Below, one piece after another: positions 46,211-56,189 of a stretch of DNA of 57,214 bases (its first letter is position 1; the number at the start of each line of letters is the position of its first letter). The notes below the pieces were generated by a model, which saw only the letters and a list, made by a program, of their open reading frames with translations, made no database searches and was not told the origin of the DNA. The stretch covers positions 156,282 to 213,495 of the forward strand of contig JAGOPY010000007.1 in the NCBI GenBank assembly GCA_017991835.1, read 5' to 3'. The position numbers and the translations under genes were made by a program. Source of the stretch: Bacteroidales bacterium (GTDB lineage Bacteria; Bacteroidota; Bacteroidia; Bacteroidales; JAGOPY01).

Positions 46211-46759
46211 ATGTATTATGATTTAGAAAAAGAATACTTCAGTCTAAAAGAGGTGTCAGTTTTTTCGGATTTAAAATATCGTCAGTTAGTGGTGAGAGTT
46301 AAATCTGTTAAAGATAAACTTGGTAGCAGTGAATTAATTTATAAAAAATCAAATCGGTGGTATATACACCATTCCTTAATAGACCAATATTTTCAAAGAA
46401 GAAGAAAACCTATTGGTTACAAATTATTTGGGACTATAAACTGTAAATACCCCTATGATATCGATTATTGGAAACACATTGTCCAGCATTTGGTTAAAAT
46501 ATTGAGAGGAATCGATTCAACAGTCAGAATAAAATATGTACTGGAAAGAACTAAAAGGAATATCATACATTTCCATTTCCTCACCACTTTTGATGATATG
46601 AAGAAATTGAAAAGGATAATCAAGGGGGATATATTAATGGGACCTGGTAACGGAATGAATGCCAAAATTAAATGGATTTATGAAGTAAAGGGTCTTCACA
46701 AGTATTTCAGAAAACAAAACAAACCGGTACTGTTGAGACAACATATCAGCCTTATATAA
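46211..46759 (+). CDS. Putative HTH-HUH endonuclease (rolling-circle replication initiator-like)
   Basis: A 182-aa protein. Residues ~10-65 look like a winged-helix/excisionase-like DNA-binding part (FSLKEVSVFSDLKYRQLVVR). Then LFGTINC resembles Rep motif I. His120-Phe-His122 in NIIHFHFLTTF is a clear HUH metal motif. Downstream tyrosines with YxxK spacing, Tyr157 (YEVK) and Tyr165 (YFRK), are candidates for the nucleophile. This order (motif I, HUH, YxxK) fits Rep/Y1-type endonucleases. The assignment rests on motifs only. The inverted repeats upstream could be its target. Confidence 0.55.
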   Translation: MYYDLEKEYFSLKEVSVFSDLKYRQLVVRVKSVKDKLGSSELIYKKSNRWYIHHSLIDQYFQRRRKPIGYKLFGTINCKYPYDIDYWKHIVQHLVKILRGIDSTVRIKYVLERTKRNIIHFHFLTTFDDMKKLKRIIKGDILMGPGNGMNAKIKWIYEVKGLHKYFRKQNKPVLLRQHISLI

Positions 46760-46930
46760 AAATACATTCGGGGGTTTGTCGGGGTAGTTCGGGATGAATC
46801 TATATCATAAAGTGATATTACTCGTTCAAACGGGGTAAAAACGACCCAGAACTAACCAAAACGAGCCAAAAAAGAGACAAATTAGGACCACAAACACTGC
46901 ATTTCTTCTTTTACAGACTGATTGAACCAT

Positions 46931-46967
46931 AAAAACCCCACGCCATTCAGCCCCAGGTGGGGTTTTT
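46931..46967. terminator. Strong bidirectional terminator
   Basis: An 11-bp perfect stem AAAAACCCCAC (46931-46941) / GTGGGGTTTTT (46957-46967) closes the HUH gene's downstream region. The following 46968-47259 stretch contains only a doubtful 92-codon frame that starts within the terminator and no credible gene. Confidence 0.85.
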
Positions 46968-47259
46968 ATTCGGAATGAGAATGGAGTTGAGATTCTTATT
47001 AAAAGTGCCGGATAACAATGATATTACAGGTTCTGGCAGAGGCAAAAAGAAAGGAATGTCTTTGTATAGCCCCGTAAATCTGTATCATCCTACATCTCAC
47101 CGACAAGTCCTGTTGAAATATATTTATACTCTTTCTAGATGTTATCACATGCAATCTTCATTAAAATTTAAAATCAATATTATTGGAGATTTAAATTATG
47201 ATATCTTTACTCATAAATTTTCTGTAAATTATTGAATGACATTATAATTCACTTTTGCC

Positions 47260-48045
47260 ATGGAAGATATTAACATGTCGGATTCAGCATACTTTCCTTA
47301 TGACATGATATTCGATGATAATTATCCTGTGAAAAAGAAATTACAGGACCAATTTGAAGCCTTGTTGATTGAACATAATGTGATGGGTAATTTAAGGTGG
47401 GGTGACTTAAGAAAGTTTGACAAGAAGTTGGCTGCCAAACTCACCGACCATTTTATTCAATCAGAGAGGAAAGCTGCCCGGTACAAATTAACTGGTGCCT
47501 ATATTCCTCATTCTGAGATTAAAGCAAAATTAAAGCAAGGAATAGATGTAAAGATTCCAGATATTCCTAGTTCTGTTGAATCAAAGAAGAAACTGTCATC
47601 GAATGAAACAATAGAAATGAATACTGGGAAGAAAAAGAAATCGATGGATGTAAAAGATTTATTGAAACTTCCTGTTAATACACTCACTCTCCGGCAAATC
47701 AAAGTGATACAAGATAAAGGAAATCTCGATATTAAAAAATTTGCACCCTATTTCAATAGGCATAAAGAATTGAAGAGTAAGAAGATTAATTACAATAAAC
47801 CCCCACACATTAAGACGGCAGTAGCCTTGATTACCAAAGTGTTTTCAGGAAGGGCAAATCCAAGTATGTGGATTGATTATCCTGAAATCATCAAAGCAAA
47901 ATTATATTCTATAAAAATGGGCATTCAATATCTGGAAAGGGAAAATCCAGAAGCCTTGATGACCGTTCTATCAAAGTTTCAACCGAAAATTGATGAATTA
48001 CTTAAAAGAGTGCATTACAATAATTTTGATGAAATAAATTTCTAA
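47260..48045 (+). CDS. Hypothetical protein upstream of the methylase
   Basis: A 261-aa protein, lysine-rich, without recognised domains. It has a low-complexity middle (NTGKKKKSMD) between two helical regions. It sits 2 nt before the D12 methylase start and so is almost certainly in one operon with it. It might be a DNA-binding partner, but this is only context. Confidence 0.65.
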   Translation: MEDINMSDSAYFPYDMIFDDNYPVKKKLQDQFEALLIEHNVMGNLRWGDLRKFDKKLAAKLTDHFIQSERKAARYKLTGAYIPHSEIKAKLKQGIDVKIPDIPSSVESKKKLSSNETIEMNTGKKKKSMDVKDLLKLPVNTLTLRQIKVIQDKGNLDIKKFAPYFNRHKELKSKKINYNKPPHIKTAVALITKVFSGRANPSMWIDYPEIIKAKLYSIKMGIQYLERENPEALMTVLSKFQPKIDELLKRVHYNNFDEINF

Positions 48046-48047
48046 TT

Positions 48048-48923
48048 ATGGTAAATTATTACGGAGGCAAAGGCAATATTCCCCACAAGATTTTTAAAAA
48101 TTTTAAATTACAGGGAATTCGAAATTATGTTGAACCGTTCTCTGGAATGTTCAGGGTTTACCTTGATAGAAGGAATGATTTCTCAAATGTTGAAAATATT
48201 ATTTATAATGACATATATGTGCCCAATTGTAATATATTTCAATGTGCCAAGATGCCTTATTTTTTCTTAAAGGCGATAAGATATGCATTGCATGATGAAG
48301 ATGGGTTTCTTTATTATCGGAAATACAAACATTACCCCGATGCATATGTGAAGTTTGAAGAAATCTATCAAGATTACAAGCATGGAAGAAGGACATTACC
48401 AGAAGTCAGTCTATCAGAAAGAAACTTTGAGGCAGCCGTAATTTATTCATTTTTAAGGGCAACAGCGTACAATGGATTTTATTTTACCGATGTATCTTTT
48501 AGGACCGGTTTATTTCAAGATACCTGGGATTTGAGATTCAAAATTTTACAAACATTGTGGAACAATTTAAGTAATATCCAAAAGATTGAAAAAGTTGCCA
48601 GGATAAGTGAAATCACAGCGGATGATTTTGAAGTTGTTATGGAAAGATACAATAGTGAAGACACTTTCATATATATAGATGCGCCATATATTGACAGGGA
48701 ACACTATTATGATTTTGAGGGCAAGGGTGTATTTACTGAAAAAGACCATGCAAGATTAGCAAAGGCAGTTCATAAATCAAAAGCAAAAATTGCAATCAGT
48801 TATTATGACAGTGATGTACTGCATGATTATTATCCAAAGCCAGATTTTAAATGGATTGAGATTCCTACCCGCAATAATGCCAAAGGGGAAGATGCCATAG
48901 AACAGTTAATTATCAGGTATTAA
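48048..48923 (+). CDS. D12-class DNA adenine methylase, variant DAPY motif
   Basis: A 291-aa N6-adenine methyltransferase-like protein. The AdoMet part is seen in VNYYGGKGNIPHKIF (YxGGK) and VEPFSGMFRVYLD (FxGxG replaced by FSGMF). Motif IV is IYIDAPYIDR, with DAPY at residues 211-214 instead of DPPY. A helical target-recognition part follows. The D12 family usually methylates GATC-like sites. The altered motifs raise doubt about activity. No matching restriction enzyme is adjacent, so it may be a solitary or mobile-element methylase. Confidence 0.8.
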   Translation: MVNYYGGKGNIPHKIFKNFKLQGIRNYVEPFSGMFRVYLDRRNDFSNVENIIYNDIYVPNCNIFQCAKMPYFFLKAIRYALHDEDGFLYYRKYKHYPDAYVKFEEIYQDYKHGRRTLPEVSLSERNFEAAVIYSFLRATAYNGFYFTDVSFRTGLFQDTWDLRFKILQTLWNNLSNIQKIEKVARISEITADDFEVVMERYNSEDTFIYIDAPYIDREHYYDFEGKGVFTEKDHARLAKAVHKSKAKIAISYYDSDVLHDYYPKPDFKWIEIPTRNNAKGEDAIEQLIIRY

Positions 48924-49043: not shown

Positions 49044-50621
49044 ATGAGCGAAGACCAAAAGCGAATCCTTGAACAACAACTCTGGAACATTGCCAATACC
49101 CTGCGAGGCAAAATGAATGCGGACGAGTTCCGTGATTATATCCTTGGATTCATATTCTACAAGTACCTTTCGGAGAAAATGGATATTTATGCGAATTCCA
49201 TTCTAAAGCAAGACCAAATCAAATACAAACAGATTAAAGAAAACTCGGCCCAGGGCGCAGAGTACATCGATGCCATCAAAGAAGAAGCCTTGGAAAAACT
49301 TGGCTATTTTCTTAAGCCTTCTGAATTGTTCAGCGAAGTGGCAAACCGGGGCAATGGTAACGGTAATAAAGAAAATCAAAGCAATTTCATTCTCGAAGAC
49401 CTTCAAAAAATCCTGACCAATATCCAACTCAGCACTATGGGAACGGCGAGTGAAGAGGATTTTGACAATCTCTTTGAGGATATGGATTTGAATAGCACGA
49501 AGTTGGGCAAAACACCCGAAGCACGCAATGAAATCATAGCAAAGGTTTTGTCCCACCTTGATAAAATCGATTTTAAACTGGAAGACACGGAATTAGATGT
49601 TCTGGGCGATGCGTACGAGTACCTGATTGCCCAGTTTGCCAGCGGTGCAGGGAAAAAAGCAGGTGAATTTTATACGCCCCAACAGGTGAGTACTGTTCTT
49701 GCAAAGATTGTTACTACCGGAAAGATGAAACTGAAATCAGCCTATGACCCGACATCAGGCTCAGGCTCTTTGTTATTGCGTATTGCCCGCCAGGTTAAAG
49801 AAGTGAGCAACTTTTACGGACAGGAACTGAACCGGACCACCTACAACCTATGCCGGATGAATATGATTTTGCATGGGGTTCACTACCGTAGGTTCGATAT
49901 TAAGCAAGAGGACACTTTGCAACATCCTCAACATATGGGGATGACATTTGAAGCCATTGTGGCAAATCCACCATTTTCGGCACAATGGAGTGCCAACCCT
50001 TTGTTTATGGGCGATGACCGGTTCAGCCAGTATGGAAGACTAGCGCCTTCCAGTAAAGCCGACTATGCCTTTGTGCAGCATATGATATACCATCTAGCAG
50101 AAAATGGAACAATGGCAATTGTTTTGCCGCACGGAGCATTATATAGAAGTGGAGCAGAGCAACATATTCGCAAATATCTGATTGCCGATAAGAACTATCT
50201 CGATGCAGTAATCGGTTTGCCACCCAATATCTTTTACGGAACAGGAATACCAACCTGTATTATGGTTTATAAAAAATGCAGGGAAAATCCAGAAGATGTT
50301 TTGTTTATTGATGCCAGTCGTGATTTTGAGAAGGTAAAGACCCAAAACTTTCTGCGAGACATTGATATTGATAAAATCATAGACACATACCGCAACCGGA
50401 AAGAAGAAGAAAAATACAGCAGACTGGCTACACTCAAAGAAATAGCAGAAAACGATTACAATCTGAATATTCCCAGGTATGTCGATTCCTTCGAAATTGA
50501 AGACAGCATTGATATTAATGCCATAGCCCAGGAACTACACGCACTGGAAGTAGAAATGAATTCAACTGATAAGGTGATTGAAGGGTTTTGCAAAGAACTT
50601 AATATTTCCACACCTTTCTAA
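49044..50621 (+). CDS. hsdM: Type I restriction enzyme, modification subunit HsdM
   Basis: A 525-aa N6-adenine methyltransferase subunit. The helical HsdM_N region starts LEQQLWNIANTLRGKMNADEFRDYI. The AdoMet motif is YDPTSGSGSLLLRI (about residue 235), and the catalytic motif is NPPFSAQW. It methylates adenine in the recognised target and is needed with HsdS for both modification and restriction. hsdS starts 3 nt after its stop. Confidence 0.95.
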   Translation: MSEDQKRILEQQLWNIANTLRGKMNADEFRDYILGFIFYKYLSEKMDIYANSILKQDQIKYKQIKENSAQGAEYIDAIKEEALEKLGYFLKPSELFSEVANRGNGNGNKENQSNFILEDLQKILTNIQLSTMGTASEEDFDNLFEDMDLNSTKLGKTPEARNEIIAKVLSHLDKIDFKLEDTELDVLGDAYEYLIAQFASGAGKKAGEFYTPQQVSTVLAKIVTTGKMKLKSAYDPTSGSGSLLLRIARQVKEVSNFYGQELNRTTYNLCRMNMILHGVHYRRFDIKQEDTLQHPQHMGMTFEAIVANPPFSAQWSANPLFMGDDRFSQYGRLAPSSKADYAFVQHMIYHLAENGTMAIVLPHGALYRSGAEQHIRKYLIADKNYLDAVIGLPPNIFYGTGIPTCIMVYKKCRENPEDVLFIDASRDFEKVKTQNFLRDIDIDKIIDTYRNRKEEEKYSRLATLKEIAENDYNLNIPRYVDSFEIEDSIDINAIAQELHALEVEMNSTDKVIEGFCKELNISTPF

Positions 50622-50624
50622 TAT

Positions 50625-51875
50625 ATGGAAAAGCAGAAGAACATTCCTCAATTGCGCTTTCCTGACTTTGAAAGTGAATGGAAAACAAAGAAATATGGTG
50701 ATATTTATTCATTTAGAAACACTAATTCATTTTCAAGAGAAGATTTAAATTACGATGATGGTGCAGTAAAGAACATCCACTATGGTGATATTCACACCAA
50801 GTTTGCAACACTTTTTGATATCAAAAAAGAACTCGTTCCTTTTATTAATCCTGAAATTGAGTTAAAAAGAATCATAGAAGATAATTATTGCAAAGAAGGT
50901 GATTTAATAGTTGCAGATGCATCAGAAGATTATGCAGATGTCGGGAAATGCATTGAGATAGTGAACTTAAACGGTGAAAAAGTCTTAGCAGGATTACATA
51001 CAATTCTTGCAAGACCTGATTTATACATAATGGCAATAGGTTTTAGCGGCTATTTAATGAAATCTCAAAAAATCCGTTTACAGATAAAAATCTATGCGCA
51101 AGGAAGTAAAGTTTATAGTATTTCCCCAAAACAAATTTCAGCCATTGAGATTACTATTCCTGAAATAGTAGAGCAGACTCGCATTGCCTCTTTCTTAACC
51201 GTCATTGATAAAAAAATTACAGAACTCAAACAGAAGAAATCCTTGTTGGAGCAATACAAAGAAGGCATAATGTATAAACTGTTTTCGCAGGAATTGAGGT
51301 TCAAGGATGATGACGGGAAGGAGTTCCCGAAGTGGGAGAAGAAAAAATTAAGAGATTTAGTTGAATTTAGAAATGGCAAGGCGCACGAACAAGAAATTTC
51401 TGAAGGCGGACAATATATCGTTATAAACTCAAAGTTTATATCAACAAAAGGCGAAGTGAAAAAATATTCTGATGCTCAAATTTGTCCATTGGAATATGGT
51501 GAAATAGTGATGGTTATGAGTGATGTCCCAAATGGGAAAGCCTTGGCAAAATGTTTTTATATTGATGAAAATGACAAGTACACTCTTAATCAGCGGATTT
51601 GTGGACTGAAAGCAAAAGGGGTTGATGCAAGATTTTTATTTTATATTTTAAATAGAAACAGTTATTATATAAAGTTCGATTCTGGAGTAGGGCAAACAAA
51701 TCTTACAAAAGATGAAGTTTTAAATTGTCCATTACTCGTTCCAGCATCAGACACCGAACAAACCAAAATCGCCAATTTTCTTTCAGCCATTGATGATAAG
51801 ATAAACCACACACAAATCCAGATACAGCAAACCGAACAATATAAAAAAGGACTCTTACAACAAATGTTCTGTTAA
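50625..51875 (+). CDS. hsdS: Type I restriction enzyme, specificity subunit HsdS
   Basis: A 416-aa subunit with two target recognition domains. TRD1 spans about residues 15-190, followed by the central conserved helix (ASFLTVIDKKITELKQKKS). TRD2 starts about residue 235 (KWEKKKLRDLVEFRNG), and a second spacer helix (NFLSAIDDKINHTQIQIQQ) closes the protein. The two half-sites cannot be predicted from sequence. It is 3 nt from hsdM and 45 nt from the toxin-like gene. Confidence 0.93.
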   Translation: MEKQKNIPQLRFPDFESEWKTKKYGDIYSFRNTNSFSREDLNYDDGAVKNIHYGDIHTKFATLFDIKKELVPFINPEIELKRIIEDNYCKEGDLIVADASEDYADVGKCIEIVNLNGEKVLAGLHTILARPDLYIMAIGFSGYLMKSQKIRLQIKIYAQGSKVYSISPKQISAIEITIPEIVEQTRIASFLTVIDKKITELKQKKSLLEQYKEGIMYKLFSQELRFKDDDGKEFPKWEKKKLRDLVEFRNGKAHEQEISEGGQYIVINSKFISTKGEVKKYSDAQICPLEYGEIVMVMSDVPNGKALAKCFYIDENDKYTLNQRICGLKAKGVDARFLFYILNRNSYYIKFDSGVGQTNLTKDEVLNCPLLVPASDTEQTKIANFLSAIDDKINHTQIQIQQTEQYKKGLLQQMFC

Positions 51876-51920
51876 ATATTGTGAAAAAAATGTTAAAAAG
51901 TAAACCTATAAGTTGATTTT

Positions 51921-52433
51921 GTGAAAATCGTTACTATATTTGCAGAAAAATTATTCTCTTTTCATTACGAGGGTGAAGTTGATAATGAGTTCGACCGGTT
52001 GATGGAACTCTGGACCAATCCTCAGTATTTGAAGAAGTTTGCAGAGGATAATGAAATAGCAGATGTAGAAGATTATGTTTTAGACCGATTGTCGGATGCA
52101 GAGCAAATCCAGGATGTTTTAGACGAGATTGAAACAGATGAAGTACCGTTGGAGCAATATTTCAAGCCACTTTTTGATAAAGAAACCGGTATCAAAATTC
52201 TCTCTTTACGAAAAGGAAAACTAAATCACAATCACTTAAGAATTTATGCCATTAAAATCGACACGGATTGTTTTGTAATAACAGGCGGTGCCATCAAAAT
52301 GAGCCAGGCCATGCAAGATTTTCCAGACACTCAAATCGAATTGGACAAATTATACGCCGCCCAAAGATACCTGAAAGATAACGGGGTTTTTGATATAGAT
52401 TCATTCTTTGAACTATTAAGAGAAGCCAAATGA
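51921..52433 (+). CDS. Putative HigB/RelE-like toxin of a TAC module
   Basis: A 170-aa protein starting with GTG. The C-terminal half (IKILSLRKGKLNHNHLRIYA, then VITGGAIKMSQAMQDFPDTQ) resembles RelE/HigB/Gp49-type mRNA interferases. The N-terminal part (TIFAEKLFSFHYEGE) is an added domain also found in Bacteroidota relatives. It overlaps the antitoxin gene by 4 nt (ATGA). The toxin-first order matches HigBA-type modules, not the usual antitoxin-first order. The catalytic residues could not be assigned with confidence. Confidence 0.6.
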   Translation: MKIVTIFAEKLFSFHYEGEVDNEFDRLMELWTNPQYLKKFAEDNEIADVEDYVLDRLSDAEQIQDVLDEIETDEVPLEQYFKPLFDKETGIKILSLRKGKLNHNHLRIYAIKIDTDCFVITGGAIKMSQAMQDFPDTQIELDKLYAAQRYLKDNGVFDIDSFFELLREAK

Positions 52434-52894
52434 CAAACAAGGAAAAATTTATGAAATTGGTATCTGATGAAAAAACAGATACGATTGCAAGGAACCGGGA
52501 ACGGATAAAGAATAGGGCAATGTTGAGAGAATCCCAGAGGATTGCCCTGAAAGTTCTCTTGAAATTGGATGAACTGGGTTGGACCCAGAAAGACCTGGCA
52601 TCCAAGATGTCTGTGAGTCCCCAGCAAATCAATAAGATTGTCAGTGGCAAAGAGAATCTGACTATTGGAACCCAAATCCAATTGCAAGATATCCTGGACA
52701 TTCCGATTCTTGCCAGTTACTACGAGAATAAGTCGAAAGAAATGGTGGAGCAAATTAAAATCTTCACTCAGGAACTTATTTATGCATTCAACGAACAAAA
52801 CTTTGTCCCTAACTATAAATCCGGCAAAGTCATAAAAATGCGTAACCTGCAAGTTTCAGAAGTTTATCCTTGTCAAGAAGCCATCAATGAGTAA
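52430..52894 (+). CDS. XRE-family antitoxin with long C-terminal tail
   Basis: A 154-aa protein. The HTH_3 domain is at residues ~46-96 (LGWTQKDLASKMSVSPQQIN). After it comes a helical segment (MVEQIKIFTQELIYAF) and a C-terminal tail ending in VPNYKSGKVIKMRNLQ and beyond. HigA antitoxins of TAC modules carry a C-terminal chaperone-addiction region, and this tail has the right place. It overlaps the next gene by 8 nt. It probably binds its own promoter. Confidence 0.7.
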   Translation: MTNKEKFMKLVSDEKTDTIARNRERIKNRAMLRESQRIALKVLLKLDELGWTQKDLASKMSVSPQQINKIVSGKENLTIGTQIQLQDILDIPILASYYENKSKEMVEQIKIFTQELIYAFNEQNFVPNYKSGKVIKMRNLQVSEVYPCQEAINE

Positions 52895-53333
52895 AGAGAA
52901 TCCAAAAGTGGGATTTAGTTTCCAGGGAATCAAATGTGAACAGTTTGCCATTCTGGAAGAAAATTTCAATCCCAAGAAAGAAATACAACTTGGTTCACAA
53001 CTGGAGTTGAAGTTAGACGAGGCAAATAAGCAAATCGGTGTTTTTTTTGGAATTGAATACATCCAGTCTAAAAAGACATTCCTCAAAATTGTAGTCAGTT
53101 GCCACTTTATCATTAAAGATGAATCGTGGAATAAGTTCGTTCAGAAAGAAGAGCCATTACTTATTGTCCCCAAAGGTTTTATTGCACATTTAGCAACGAT
53201 TACAGTAAGCACCACCCGTGGCGTTCTCTATGCAAAGACTGAAGGAACCCAGTTTTCGAAATTTATGGTACCACTTGTGAATGTTACTGAAATAATTACG
53301 GAAGATGTACCATTTAATCTGAATAAAGATTAG
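52887..53333 (+). CDS. SecB-like chaperone of a toxin-antitoxin-chaperone module
   Basis: A 148-aa protein. Its alternating beta strands and helices fit a SecB fold: FSFQGIKCEQFAILEENFN near the N-terminus, IGVFFGIEYIQSKKTFLKIVV, then GFIAHLATITVSTTRGVLYA. The last segment resembles SecB-like chaperones of Bacteroidota. It stops exactly where hsdR begins (TAG then ATG). The fold call is from pattern recognition, not a search. Confidence 0.6.
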   Translation: MSKENPKVGFSFQGIKCEQFAILEENFNPKKEIQLGSQLELKLDEANKQIGVFFGIEYIQSKKTFLKIVVSCHFIIKDESWNKFVQKEEPLLIVPKGFIAHLATITVSTTRGVLYAKTEGTQFSKFMVPLVNVTEIITEDVPFNLNKD

Positions 53334-56189
53334 ATGCCTAAACAACCCGAACAAATACTGGAAGAACAACTGGTTGAGCGGCTACAAGCCCTGGGGTATA
53401 GTTTAGTATTGATAAAAGACGAAGAGGATCTCCTTGCCAACCTTAAACGCCAGTTAGAAAAACACAATAATATACTGTTCAGCGATGCGGAGTTTGAAAA
53501 GGTTCTGAACATCCTGAGCAAAGGTTCAGTATTTGAAAAAGCCAAGTCATTACGGGAAAAGCAGCATATTGTAAGAGATAATGGCGACAACCTTTATTTT
53601 GAGTTTATCCAGATGGAACACTGGTGCCAAAACCAGTACCAGGTAACCCACCAGGTTACCATTGAAGGAAAATATAAAAACCGTTACGATGTTACCCTTC
53701 TTGTCAACGGCTTACCCCTGGTGCAGATAGAACTGAAGCGAAGGGGTTTAGAGTTAAAGGAGGCGTTTAACCAGGTTAACCGATATCAACGACATTCTTT
53801 CGGGGCAAATTCAGCCTTGTATCAATACATCCAGATTTTTGTTATCAGCAACGGGGTAAACTCCAAGTATTACGCCAATAACAGATTCCAGTCTTTTAAA
53901 CAGACTTTCTTCTGGACAGATGTCGAGAATAAACGAATCACAAATATCCTGAACGGATTTTCCACCGAGTTTCTGGAGCCTTGCCATATCTCCAAAATGA
54001 TATGCAAGTACATTGTCCTGAACGAAACTAATAAAATCCTGATGGTATTGCGCCCCTACCAGTATTATGCAGTGGAAGCCCTTGTAGATAAGGTAATGCA
54101 CAGCCATAATAACGGTTATGTCTGGCATACAACAGGTTCAGGCAAGACATTGACATCGTTTAAAGCCAGCCAGATTCTCACCCGGTTACCAAAAGTCAAA
54201 AAGGTTGTATTTGTCGTTGACAGAAAAGACCTGGATTATCAAACCATCAAGGAGTTTGACAGTTTTAAAAAAGGTTGTGTAGATGCCACAGACAATACCA
54301 GGCAATTGGTTCAACAGTTTACCGATGACACAAAACTTATTGTTACCACTATTCAAAAACTGAATACCGCCATCAGTAAAAAATGGTATCTGGAAAAAAT
54401 GGAACCCTTGAAGGATGAACGAATTGTGTTCATCTTTGATGAGTGCCATCGCACCCAGTTTGGAGAAACACACAAGCGAATCCGGGAGTTCTTCAAGAAT
54501 ATTCAGTTATTTGGGTTTACCGGCACACCAATTTTCACCGAAAATGCTGTCAAAAATGAATTTGGTAAACGGACTACAAGAGAGTTGTTTGGCGAATGCC
54601 TGCATAAGTATGTCATCACCGATGCCATCAAAGACGAGAATGTTTTAAAGTTTTCCGTTGAATATGTTGGCAGATACAAGAAAAAGGACAGTGCCACCGA
54701 AATCGATATTGAAGTAGAAGGCATTGATACCAAAGAGTTGATGGAGTCGCCGGTACGATTGGAAAAGATTACCGATTATATTTTAGCCCACCATAGCCAG
54801 AAAACCCACAACAGGGAATTTACGGGCATGTTTTGTGTCAGTAGCATAGACTCTTTAATAAGGTACTATGATATTTTCCAGAAGAAGAAAGAGGAAGGAC
54901 ATCACAATCTGAAAATCGCAACCATTTTCAGTTATGTCGCCAACGAAGACGATGCCGACGCCAATGGTTTTATTCCCGATGAATTATCTGTTGCAGAAGA
55001 ACCAAAAGTTTTATACGGGTTGAACAAACACAGCCGGGAGAAACTCGATGAATGCATCGAGCATTACAATAAAATGTTCGGAACAAATTTCTCCACAAAA
55101 GACAGTGAATCCTTCTATAATTATTATAAAGACATTTCAAAAAAGGTAAAAGAACGCAAAGTTGACATTCTACTGGTGGTAAACATGTACCTGACAGGTT
55201 TTGACAGTCCACCCCTGAACACTTTGTATGTCGATAAGAACCTGAAATATCACGGGTTGATTCAAGCCTATTCCAGGACCAACAGGATACTCAACGAACA
55301 GAAATCACAAGGAAACATTGTGGTTTTCCGTAATCTCAAAAATGCCACCGATGAAGCCATAATCCTTTTCAGCAACAAGGAAGCCATCGATGTAATCATC
55401 ATGAAACCTTATGATGATTATGTTAAGAAGTTCAACGAGGCTTTTGTTGCGCTACTGGGCATTACCCCAACCGTAAACAGCGTCAATGAACTTCCCACAG
55501 AAGATGAAGAATTGAAATTCATCACCGCATTCCGGGAATTAATCCGCATAAAGAATGTTCTGACCACATTCTCCGACTTCAAATGGGACGATTTGTCGAT
55601 GGACGAACAGAAATTTGAGGATTTCAAAAGCAAGTATCTCGACCTGTACGACAAAGTTAAATCCGACCACCAGGCAGAGAAGGTATCCATTCTGGAAGAT
55701 GTCGATTTTGAACTCGAACTTATTCACAGGGATGAAATCAATGTAGCCTACATCATCAAACTATTGATAAAACTGAAATCCAAGTCTAAAACAGATACCA
55801 CAGAAACCGAAAAGGAAATCTTCAACCTTCTCAATACCGAAGCCAGATTGCGAAGCAAACGGGAACTGATAGAGCGTTTCATCAAAGAAAACCTACCTGT
55901 AATAGAAGATTCCGAGGATGTTCCCAAGGAATTTGAAAAATTCTGGGACATTGAGCAACAGAAAGCATTTGACCAGTTGGTAAAGGATGAAAACCTATCT
56001 GCCGAAAGAACCCAGGCTTTGATAGAGCAGTATTTATATTCTGAACGGGAACCATTAAGAGATGAAATCCTGGAACTGCTTCAAGGCGAACAACCGAAGG
56101 TCTTGGAACGCAAGAAACTTGGCGACAGGATAATGAAGAAGATTATCGGGTTTGTTGATACCTTCATCAACGGGATAGTGGGGCAATAA
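53334..56189 (+). CDS. hsdR: Type I restriction enzyme, restriction subunit HsdR
   Basis: A 951-aa motor-nuclease. The N-terminal PD-ExK nuclease has Asp in NRYDVTLLVNG and Glu-x-Lys in PLVQIELKRRG. The SF2 motor has Walker A HTTGSGKTLTSF (about residues 264-275), DECH in IFDECHRTQFGETH, and GFTGTPIF. The C-terminal region is helical for HsdM/HsdS contact. Its stop region overlaps the convergent 56167 gene by 23 bp. It is the last gene of the hsdM-hsdS-TAC-hsdR operon. Confidence 0.95.
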   Translation: MPKQPEQILEEQLVERLQALGYSLVLIKDEEDLLANLKRQLEKHNNILFSDAEFEKVLNILSKGSVFEKAKSLREKQHIVRDNGDNLYFEFIQMEHWCQNQYQVTHQVTIEGKYKNRYDVTLLVNGLPLVQIELKRRGLELKEAFNQVNRYQRHSFGANSALYQYIQIFVISNGVNSKYYANNRFQSFKQTFFWTDVENKRITNILNGFSTEFLEPCHISKMICKYIVLNETNKILMVLRPYQYYAVEALVDKVMHSHNNGYVWHTTGSGKTLTSFKASQILTRLPKVKKVVFVVDRKDLDYQTIKEFDSFKKGCVDATDNTRQLVQQFTDDTKLIVTTIQKLNTAISKKWYLEKMEPLKDERIVFIFDECHRTQFGETHKRIREFFKNIQLFGFTGTPIFTENAVKNEFGKRTTRELFGECLHKYVITDAIKDENVLKFSVEYVGRYKKKDSATEIDIEVEGIDTKELMESPVRLEKITDYILAHHSQKTHNREFTGMFCVSSIDSLIRYYDIFQKKKEEGHHNLKIATIFSYVANEDDADANGFIPDELSVAEEPKVLYGLNKHSREKLDECIEHYNKMFGTNFSTKDSESFYNYYKDISKKVKERKVDILLVVNMYLTGFDSPPLNTLYVDKNLKYHGLIQAYSRTNRILNEQKSQGNIVVFRNLKNATDEAIILFSNKEAIDVIIMKPYDDYVKKFNEAFVALLGITPTVNSVNELPTEDEELKFITAFRELIRIKNVLTTFSDFKWDDLSMDEQKFEDFKSKYLDLYDKVKSDHQAEKVSILEDVDFELELIHRDEINVAYIIKLLIKLKSKSKTDTTETEKEIFNLLNTEARLRSKRELIERFIKENLPVIEDSEDVPKEFEKFWDIEQQKAFDQLVKDENLSAERTQALIEQYLYSEREPLRDEILELLQGEQPKVLERKKLGDRIMKKIIGFVDTFINGIVGQ

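Follow-up and report, generated by a model that had tools for sequence, protein, structure and literature searches.

The 57,214-nucleotide stretch of contig JAGOPY010000007.1 of a Bacteroidales bacterium (assembly GCA_017991835.1), hereafter the window, contains a type I restriction-modification (R-M) operon in which the genes for the specificity subunit (hsdS) and the restriction subunit (hsdR) are separated by a likely toxin-antitoxin-chaperone (TAC) module. We think it probable that the SecB-like protein of this module holds the tail of the antitoxin, and that capture of the chaperone by a phage protein would free a likely RelE-type toxin. The three genes encode a probable RelE/ParE-superfamily toxin of 170 aa with a GTG start (51921..52433), an XRE-type helix-turn-helix (HTH) protein of 154 aa, named antitoxin by its position and domain (52430..52894; HTH_3, E = 3.7e-9), and a SecB-like chaperone of 148 aa (52887..53333). 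The six genes, from hsdM to hsdR, are all on the + strand. The toxin open reading frame (ORF) starts 45 nt after hsdS, overlaps the antitoxin gene by 4 nt, which in turn overlaps the SecB-like gene by 8 nt, and the ATG of hsdR at 53334 abuts the module with 0 nt. We thus reproduced the coordinates, gene order, overlaps and abutting hsdR start given in an earlier note made from the sequence alone (the original prediction). Published work is cited below from the available parts of each paper.

The TAC reading is well supported: the 148-aa protein has a predicted SecB fold, the 170-aa protein is probably a toxin of the RelE superfamily, and among relatives the antitoxin tail is present or absent together with the chaperone. 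The original prediction depended on the 148-aa protein folding as SecB and on the 170-aa protein belonging to a toxin family. The former held: the predicted fold of the protein adjoining the toxin-antitoxin (TA) pair is that of SecB. As to the latter, the model of the 170-aa protein aligns to RelE/ParE toxins with moderate confidence; no curated HigB/RelE Pfam model matched the window copy or five divergent relatives. Foldseek alone was weak for this protein (best row ParE2, E = 4), and the RelE/ParE pattern was visible only in a VIA second look at 161 preselected chains; judged from these models, it is probably a RelE/ParE-superfamily toxin. The Pfam scan of the window left both the 170-aa and the 148-aa proteins without any match above cut-off. 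PF02556, the SecB family, matched neither the window copy of the SecB-like protein nor five divergent relatives, and was not found in the window's own assembly (G000), which is 76% complete; TAC chaperones falling outside PF02556 are known (PMC4257090). Sequence comparison with solved structures was uninformative for both the SecB-like protein and the toxin, and the HTH protein scored 31.3 bits against the HigA model TIGR02607, below the curated cut-off of 47.7. The PDC-M64 models of PADLOC match all three proteins: the toxin (M64B, 3.6e-8), the HTH protein (M64C, 4.4e-13) and the SecB-like protein (M64C, 1.6e-13). PDC-M64C is matched by all 29 SecB-like rows.

Relatives were sought in genome samples of the phylum, the order and the class, which overlap, and genes in their flanks were called by a home-made procedure. 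In the phylum sample, 29 of 395 genomes matched the toxin profile and 59 the SecB-like profile; the toxin profile also matched 20 of 295 genomes in the order and 19 of 395 in the class. The toxin alignment was built from 72 of the 120 listed proteins (425 were found) and the SecB-like alignment from all 28. Among viral contigs, 35 and 16 stretches fitted a pattern and none was confirmed as a relative. We retained 73 toxin genes of at least 120 aa, shorter fragments being excluded from the tree, the palindrome counts and the R-M counts. An HTH gene lies directly behind the toxin in 64 of them, followed by a SecB-like gene in 44 (trios) and by none in 20 (pairs); the nine toxin genes with no HTH gene called directly behind stand outside the tail counts. 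Two loci (L082 and L110) have no toxin or SecB gene called, and one (L178) encodes three tandem TA pairs of this family, none with a SecB-like gene.

Known TAC antitoxins have a C-terminal chaperone-addiction (ChAD) extension, and the ChAD sequences tested were not significantly alike (PMC5105189). The window antitoxin also has a C-terminal extension, a tail of 56 aa with six aromatic residues (52724..52891, + strand) that we predict to be a chaperone-addiction region. Across the relatives, toxin fragments included, the median number of residues behind the HTH core is 53 in the 47 loci with a SecB-like gene behind and 17 in the 22 loci without. Tails of at least 25 residues have a mean aromatic fraction of 0.107 in the presence of SecB (46 tails) against 0.020 in its absence (9 tails). 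The toxin tree without locus L163 implies at least 10 changes of the SecB state. Tails with at least three aromatic residues occur in 42 of the 44 tree rows with SecB (the two failures are, by eye, L043 and L168) and in none of the 19 rows without, the cut-off of three having been chosen after the counts were known and contig-edge rows being included. Among six independent pairs on this tree, 175 of 200 random pairings favoured the association 6:0; the other 25 gave 5:0 and a single tie. Tail length, with a threshold of at least 40 residues, agrees with the SecB state in 42 of 44 rows with the gene and 16 of 19 without; the exceptions are short tails beside SecB (L043, L111) and long tails without it (L101, L105, L179). 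Here the pairs typically gave 5:0 with one tie (median p = 0.06). When three contig-edge rows (L096, L162 and L174, which end 303, 170 and 477 nt past the antitoxin) were also dropped, four supported pairs were left and the length test was without power (median p = 0.25). Antitoxins ending in AA were found in 14 of the 47 SecB-linked loci and in none of the 22 others; we liken these ends to the ClpXP signal that terminates CmdA and other TAC antitoxins (PMC11618068). The window antitoxin ends in EAINE.

Two loci read as natural experiments on the tail and the chaperone. L095 has a toxin and an antitoxin between hsdS and hsdR, an interval shared with an upstream gene for a 388-aa pentapeptide-repeat protein; it lacks SecB, and its antitoxin tail has 15 aa and no aromatic residue. 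L163 appears to be a relic, in which an antitoxin core without tail adjoins a C-terminal scrap of a SecB-like gene. This locus was at first classed as a two-gene locus and was dropped from the later tail tests when the scrap was found. Could the module not be a TAC at all, the SecB-like protein being an export chaperone and the small ORF no toxin? In one genus (g60; L046-L074), 29 loci with similar surroundings have a SecB-like gene of this family on its own, no TA pair being called next to it, and these genes would fit such a role. The association of tail and chaperone, the conserved toxin-antitoxin-chaperone order and the RelE-like fold argue against it, and we regard it as very improbable.

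The module seems to bring its own operator and promoter, placed in the window between the modification genes and hsdR. A conserved 22-bp palindrome, the likely operator of the antitoxin, lies at 51898..51919 (+ strand) and ends 1 nt before the toxin start codon. It emerged as the single conserved block (AAATMAACYTATARGTTGATTT) in the aligned DNA upstream of 11 toxins of the window's clade, mostly at -23 to -2 of the called start codon. The consensus was derived from the same loci that were later scored, among which L178 counts three times and L098-L100 are near-identical: it is found within six mismatches out of 22 in 49 of the 73 toxin genes and within four in 39, with no match in 24. In 56 of the 73 the position at the toxin start is the best match of the entire fetched locus. 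The window copy has three mismatches, against six for the next best place in the 57 kb, and when the window's version of the palindrome served as the query, this place was the single hit in the window, with none in 100 shuffles. All six toxin genes in front of hsdR (the window, L034, L095, L154, L155 and L173) have the palindrome at -23 with one to four mismatches. The palindrome also covaries with the antitoxin. It is present for 43 of 49 antitoxins with glutamine at position 4 of the recognition helix and for 1 of 15 with other residues, which supports binding but, as helix and palindrome share ancestry, is no proof of it. We set aside the reading of the palindrome as an RNA hairpin, since 34 of 49 sites have A at position 5 and 43 of 49 have G at position 18, so that these two positions would not pair in most sites.

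A promoter-like box is found close to the palindrome. The consensus of the Bacteroidota -7 element is TAnnTTTG (PMC7366714, PMC2483708), and the window has a box of this type, TATATTTG, at 51935..51942 (+ strand), inside the toxin frame at codons 5-8. Such a box lies 37-39 nt from the palindrome start in 28 of 50 palindrome-bearing toxin genes. It is not explained by a coding effect alone, because synonymous sites are biased at the box and because in L186 it lies in non-coding DNA upstream of the called toxin start. At the box, ATA encodes 30 of 44 isoleucines, compared with 183 of 535 in the rest of these toxins (p = 1.4e-5), and TTT encodes 29 of 31 phenylalanines, compared with 353 of 449 (p = 0.06); the preceding base is T in 44 of 44. 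A scan for sigma-70-type promoters and terminators found no more sites than in shuffles. A transcript from the box would presumably start near codon 9-10 of the toxin, and would then carry the antitoxin, the chaperone and hsdR but no toxin start.

The position of the palindrome and the promoter box between hsdS and the genes before hsdR suggests that the module and hsdR are linked in transcription. The original prediction had taken the overlaps to imply one transcript for the operon. The overlaps are real, but they are no proof of a single transcript, given the conserved palindrome and promoter-like box at the toxin start. One could then suppose that the HTH protein is mainly a controller of the R-M system, which would bind the palindrome and set hsdR expression after methylation, with the toxin and the chaperone serving this control. 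The location of palindrome and -7 box between hsdMS and hsdR, and the absence of a gap between the module and hsdR, are in line with this. Yet the same palindrome is found at copies with no R-M genes nearby (e.g. L165 and L176) and at a copy placed after hsdR (L040), from which we conclude that its conserved role is the control of the module itself; a mainly R-M controlling function is rather improbable.

The surrounding genes are those of a type I system. Upstream of the module are hsdM for the modification subunit (49044..50621, + strand; Pfam N6_Mtase, 1.1e-109; TIGR00497, 463 bits) and hsdS (50625..51875, + strand; Methylase_S, 5.2e-27), and downstream is hsdR (53334..56189, + strand; PADLOC REase_I, 1036 bits). 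HsdR has an EcoR124_C domain (PF12008, E = 3.9e-67) and classifies the system as type IC, a marker that we take from the name of the domain and from the status of EcoR124 as the type IC prototype (PMC3874165). Further upstream, at 46211-48923, are a weak REP/G2P-like ORF (0.0025, below the cut-off) and a D12-class adenine methyltransferase gene (2.2e-16), which may indicate a mobile-element neighbourhood.

The same trio was found in further hsdS-hsdR intervals, as the original prediction had proposed to look for. The order hsdS-toxin-HTH-SecB-hsdR is complete in L034 and L173; in L155 hsdS is partial, cut by the contig edge. In L154 the toxin-HTH-SecB-hsdR genes follow a transposase gene and an ORF of 172 aa that matched nothing in Pfam, and neither hsdM nor hsdS was seen among the six upstream genes inspected. 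This recurrence speaks against a chance arrangement in the window. More generally, the immediate neighbour on the same strand carries an R-M label in 17 of 44 trios and in 2 of 20 pairs; within a distance of three genes the counts are 18 trios and 2 pairs (Fisher p = 0.019, uncorrected for relatedness), L163 being still among the 20 pairs. In the controls the count was 0 of 29 for lone SecB-like genes, and 24 of 305 for genes of these loci that lie seven or more genes off. The R-M labels came from profiles built on members of the set; a Pfam check of ten labelled neighbours, which did not cover L085 and L088, found an R-M model in seven and none in three (L036, a partial ORF of 439 aa, L158 and L177). 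The R-M types beside the module are type I, type III, Eco57I-like (L041, L044) and McrBC (L043). Among the type III cases, L039 has the order ResIII-TAC-methylase, L112 has a Res gene behind the module, and in L036 the methylase was confirmed by Pfam and the upstream partner was recognised by a home-made profile only. Adjacency to R-M genes changes at least 12 times on the toxin tree (73 rows, 19 positive), implying that the module was placed beside such genes repeatedly. We rejected a single lineage of module-bearing HsdR proteins (approximately unbiased test, p = 4e-54; six rows against 20, with long branches flagged).

The hsdS-hsdR interval of this R-M lineage is a slot whose cargo differs between near relatives. 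HsdR has a match of some kind in 181 of the 295 order genomes, and we fetched twenty loci of near HsdR relatives. The interval is empty in L223 and L233. It encodes Fic proteins in L219 and, together with further ORFs, in L232 and L237; an HTH-ImmA protein, a weakly PIN-like protein and an HTH protein in L222; a NucS/DUF4268 protein in L221, an Mrr-like protein in L225, a GHKL ATPase in L224, a Schlafen-type protein in L234, a 23S-IVP protein in L236 and an unnamed 214-aa protein in L229. The remaining eight loci have another order around hsdR, no hsdS recognised upstream, or a contig end. This variable cargo would also be expected if the TAC were a hitch-hiking addiction element that stabilises the operon or a mobile segment, with no role in phage sensing. 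Two pairs on plasmids of Bacteroides and Phocaeicola, and a trio on one of Persicobacter, point the same way. However, the trios are near R-M genes more often than the pairs, and the TACs that have been studied defend against phage (PMC11618068, PMC9519451). We therefore judge a pure addiction element unlikely, while giving it some weight.

The toxin, or its complex, might instead be held by the HsdRMS enzyme and be freed when a phage anti-restriction protein blocks it. There is a precedent in PrrC, whose gene lies within the type IC operon of EcoprrI and which is set free when T4 infects the cell (PMC3874165), and PrrC orthologues are described as invariably linked to type Ic systems (PMC2610378); the EcoR124_C domain of the window HsdR fits this pattern. 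On the other hand, Pfam and PADLOC gave no match to the ABC-ATPase or the anticodon nuclease of PrrC for any of the three module proteins (148-170 aa). The module also needs no HsdR, because the family occurs with no R-M genes nearby, on plasmids and beside type III, McrBC and Eco57I-like genes, and hence must have its own silencer. Such gating seems quite improbable. The original prediction had added to the TAC a functional coupling to restriction, with an abortive layer when restriction fails. It is thus partly supported: the TAC reading has good support, and the coupling is a hypothesis. The link of the module to restriction is most likely one of shared transcription and inheritance, and not of physical gating by HsdR.

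The TAC that we favour as the simplest account, with a tail held by the SecB-like chaperone, would work as follows. In a healthy cell the chaperone would sit on the antitoxin tail. A phage protein that occupies the chaperone would leave the antitoxin to be degraded and the toxin freed; if of the RelE type, as is likely, this toxin would stop translation, so that the infected cell shuts itself down. The triggers described for other TACs are of this kind: a T4 capsid protein captures the SecB-like chaperone of CmdTAC (PMC11618068), and HigBAC is reported to respond to the major tail protein of lambda, as told in PMC11980606. The antitoxin would bind the palindrome and control a promoter within the operon, from which transcription would continue into hsdR. 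We infer toxicity, binding of the tail by the chaperone, the phage trigger and this regulation from the genes and their relatives. The module would thus sense phage on its own and, carried along within R-M loci, would form a second line of defence. A more specific possibility, which we put forward tentatively and consider unlikely, is that the antitoxin represses the promoter before hsdR, and that phage capture of the chaperone both frees the toxin and switches on hsdR. If true, a single SecB-like sensor would govern both layers of defence, and this cassette would have been wired repeatedly into R-M loci of several types.

The arrangement is less novel than the original prediction held, given the PDC-M64 matches and a TA system between hsdS and hsdR that is already in print. 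The module shares with HigBA-SecB modules (HigBAC, of the Rv1955-1957 type) the toxin-antitoxin-SecB order, an HTH antitoxin with a C-terminal extension and a chaperone of SecB fold. It differs from them in a toxin without HigB/RelE Pfam match, a chaperone without PF02556, its place inside an R-M operon and its own conserved palindrome. CmdTAC (PD-T4-9) is likewise a phage-sensing TAC with a SecB-like chaperone, and 4 of 29 SecB-like rows match PD-T4-9_C (best E = 4e-4), which we equate with CmdC by the name of the model. Yet CmdT is an ADP-ribosyltransferase, whereas the window toxin looks RelE-like and has no ADP-ribosyltransferase model among its Pfam and PADLOC matches. In the RRDM island, the TA system DarTG2 occupies the hsdS-hsdR interval of a type I R-M operon (PMC12255303). 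It has a separate repressor, RptR, at the front of the operon, whereas the window palindrome is internal, at the toxin start, and the available part of the source names no chaperone. PrrC is a toxin gene embedded in a type IC operon as an abortive second layer (PMC3874165), but it is an anticodon nuclease silenced by the R-M enzyme itself, whereas the window encodes an antitoxin and a chaperone. PDC entries are unvalidated phage-defence candidates found by 'guilt-by-embedding' (PMC10855318, PMC12988326). The name PDC-M64 was absent from the literature searched, which yielded no mechanism for it and no description of a SecB-type TAC between hsdS and hsdR; preprints lay outside that literature. 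TACs, DarTG2 between hsdS and hsdR, and PrrC are thus already known, and PDC-M64 lists the proteins; the present analysis contributes the association of tail and chaperone in this family, the palindrome with its promoter box, and the recurrence beside several R-M types.

An unvalidated PDC-M64 entry thereby becomes a concrete TAC that can be put to the test, with a predicted addiction tail, a predicted operator, and natural controls that lack tail and chaperone. If the operator controls hsdR, the phage-sensing chaperone would set both the abortive toxin and restriction, and the cooperation of R-M systems with the toxins embedded in them would become directly testable.
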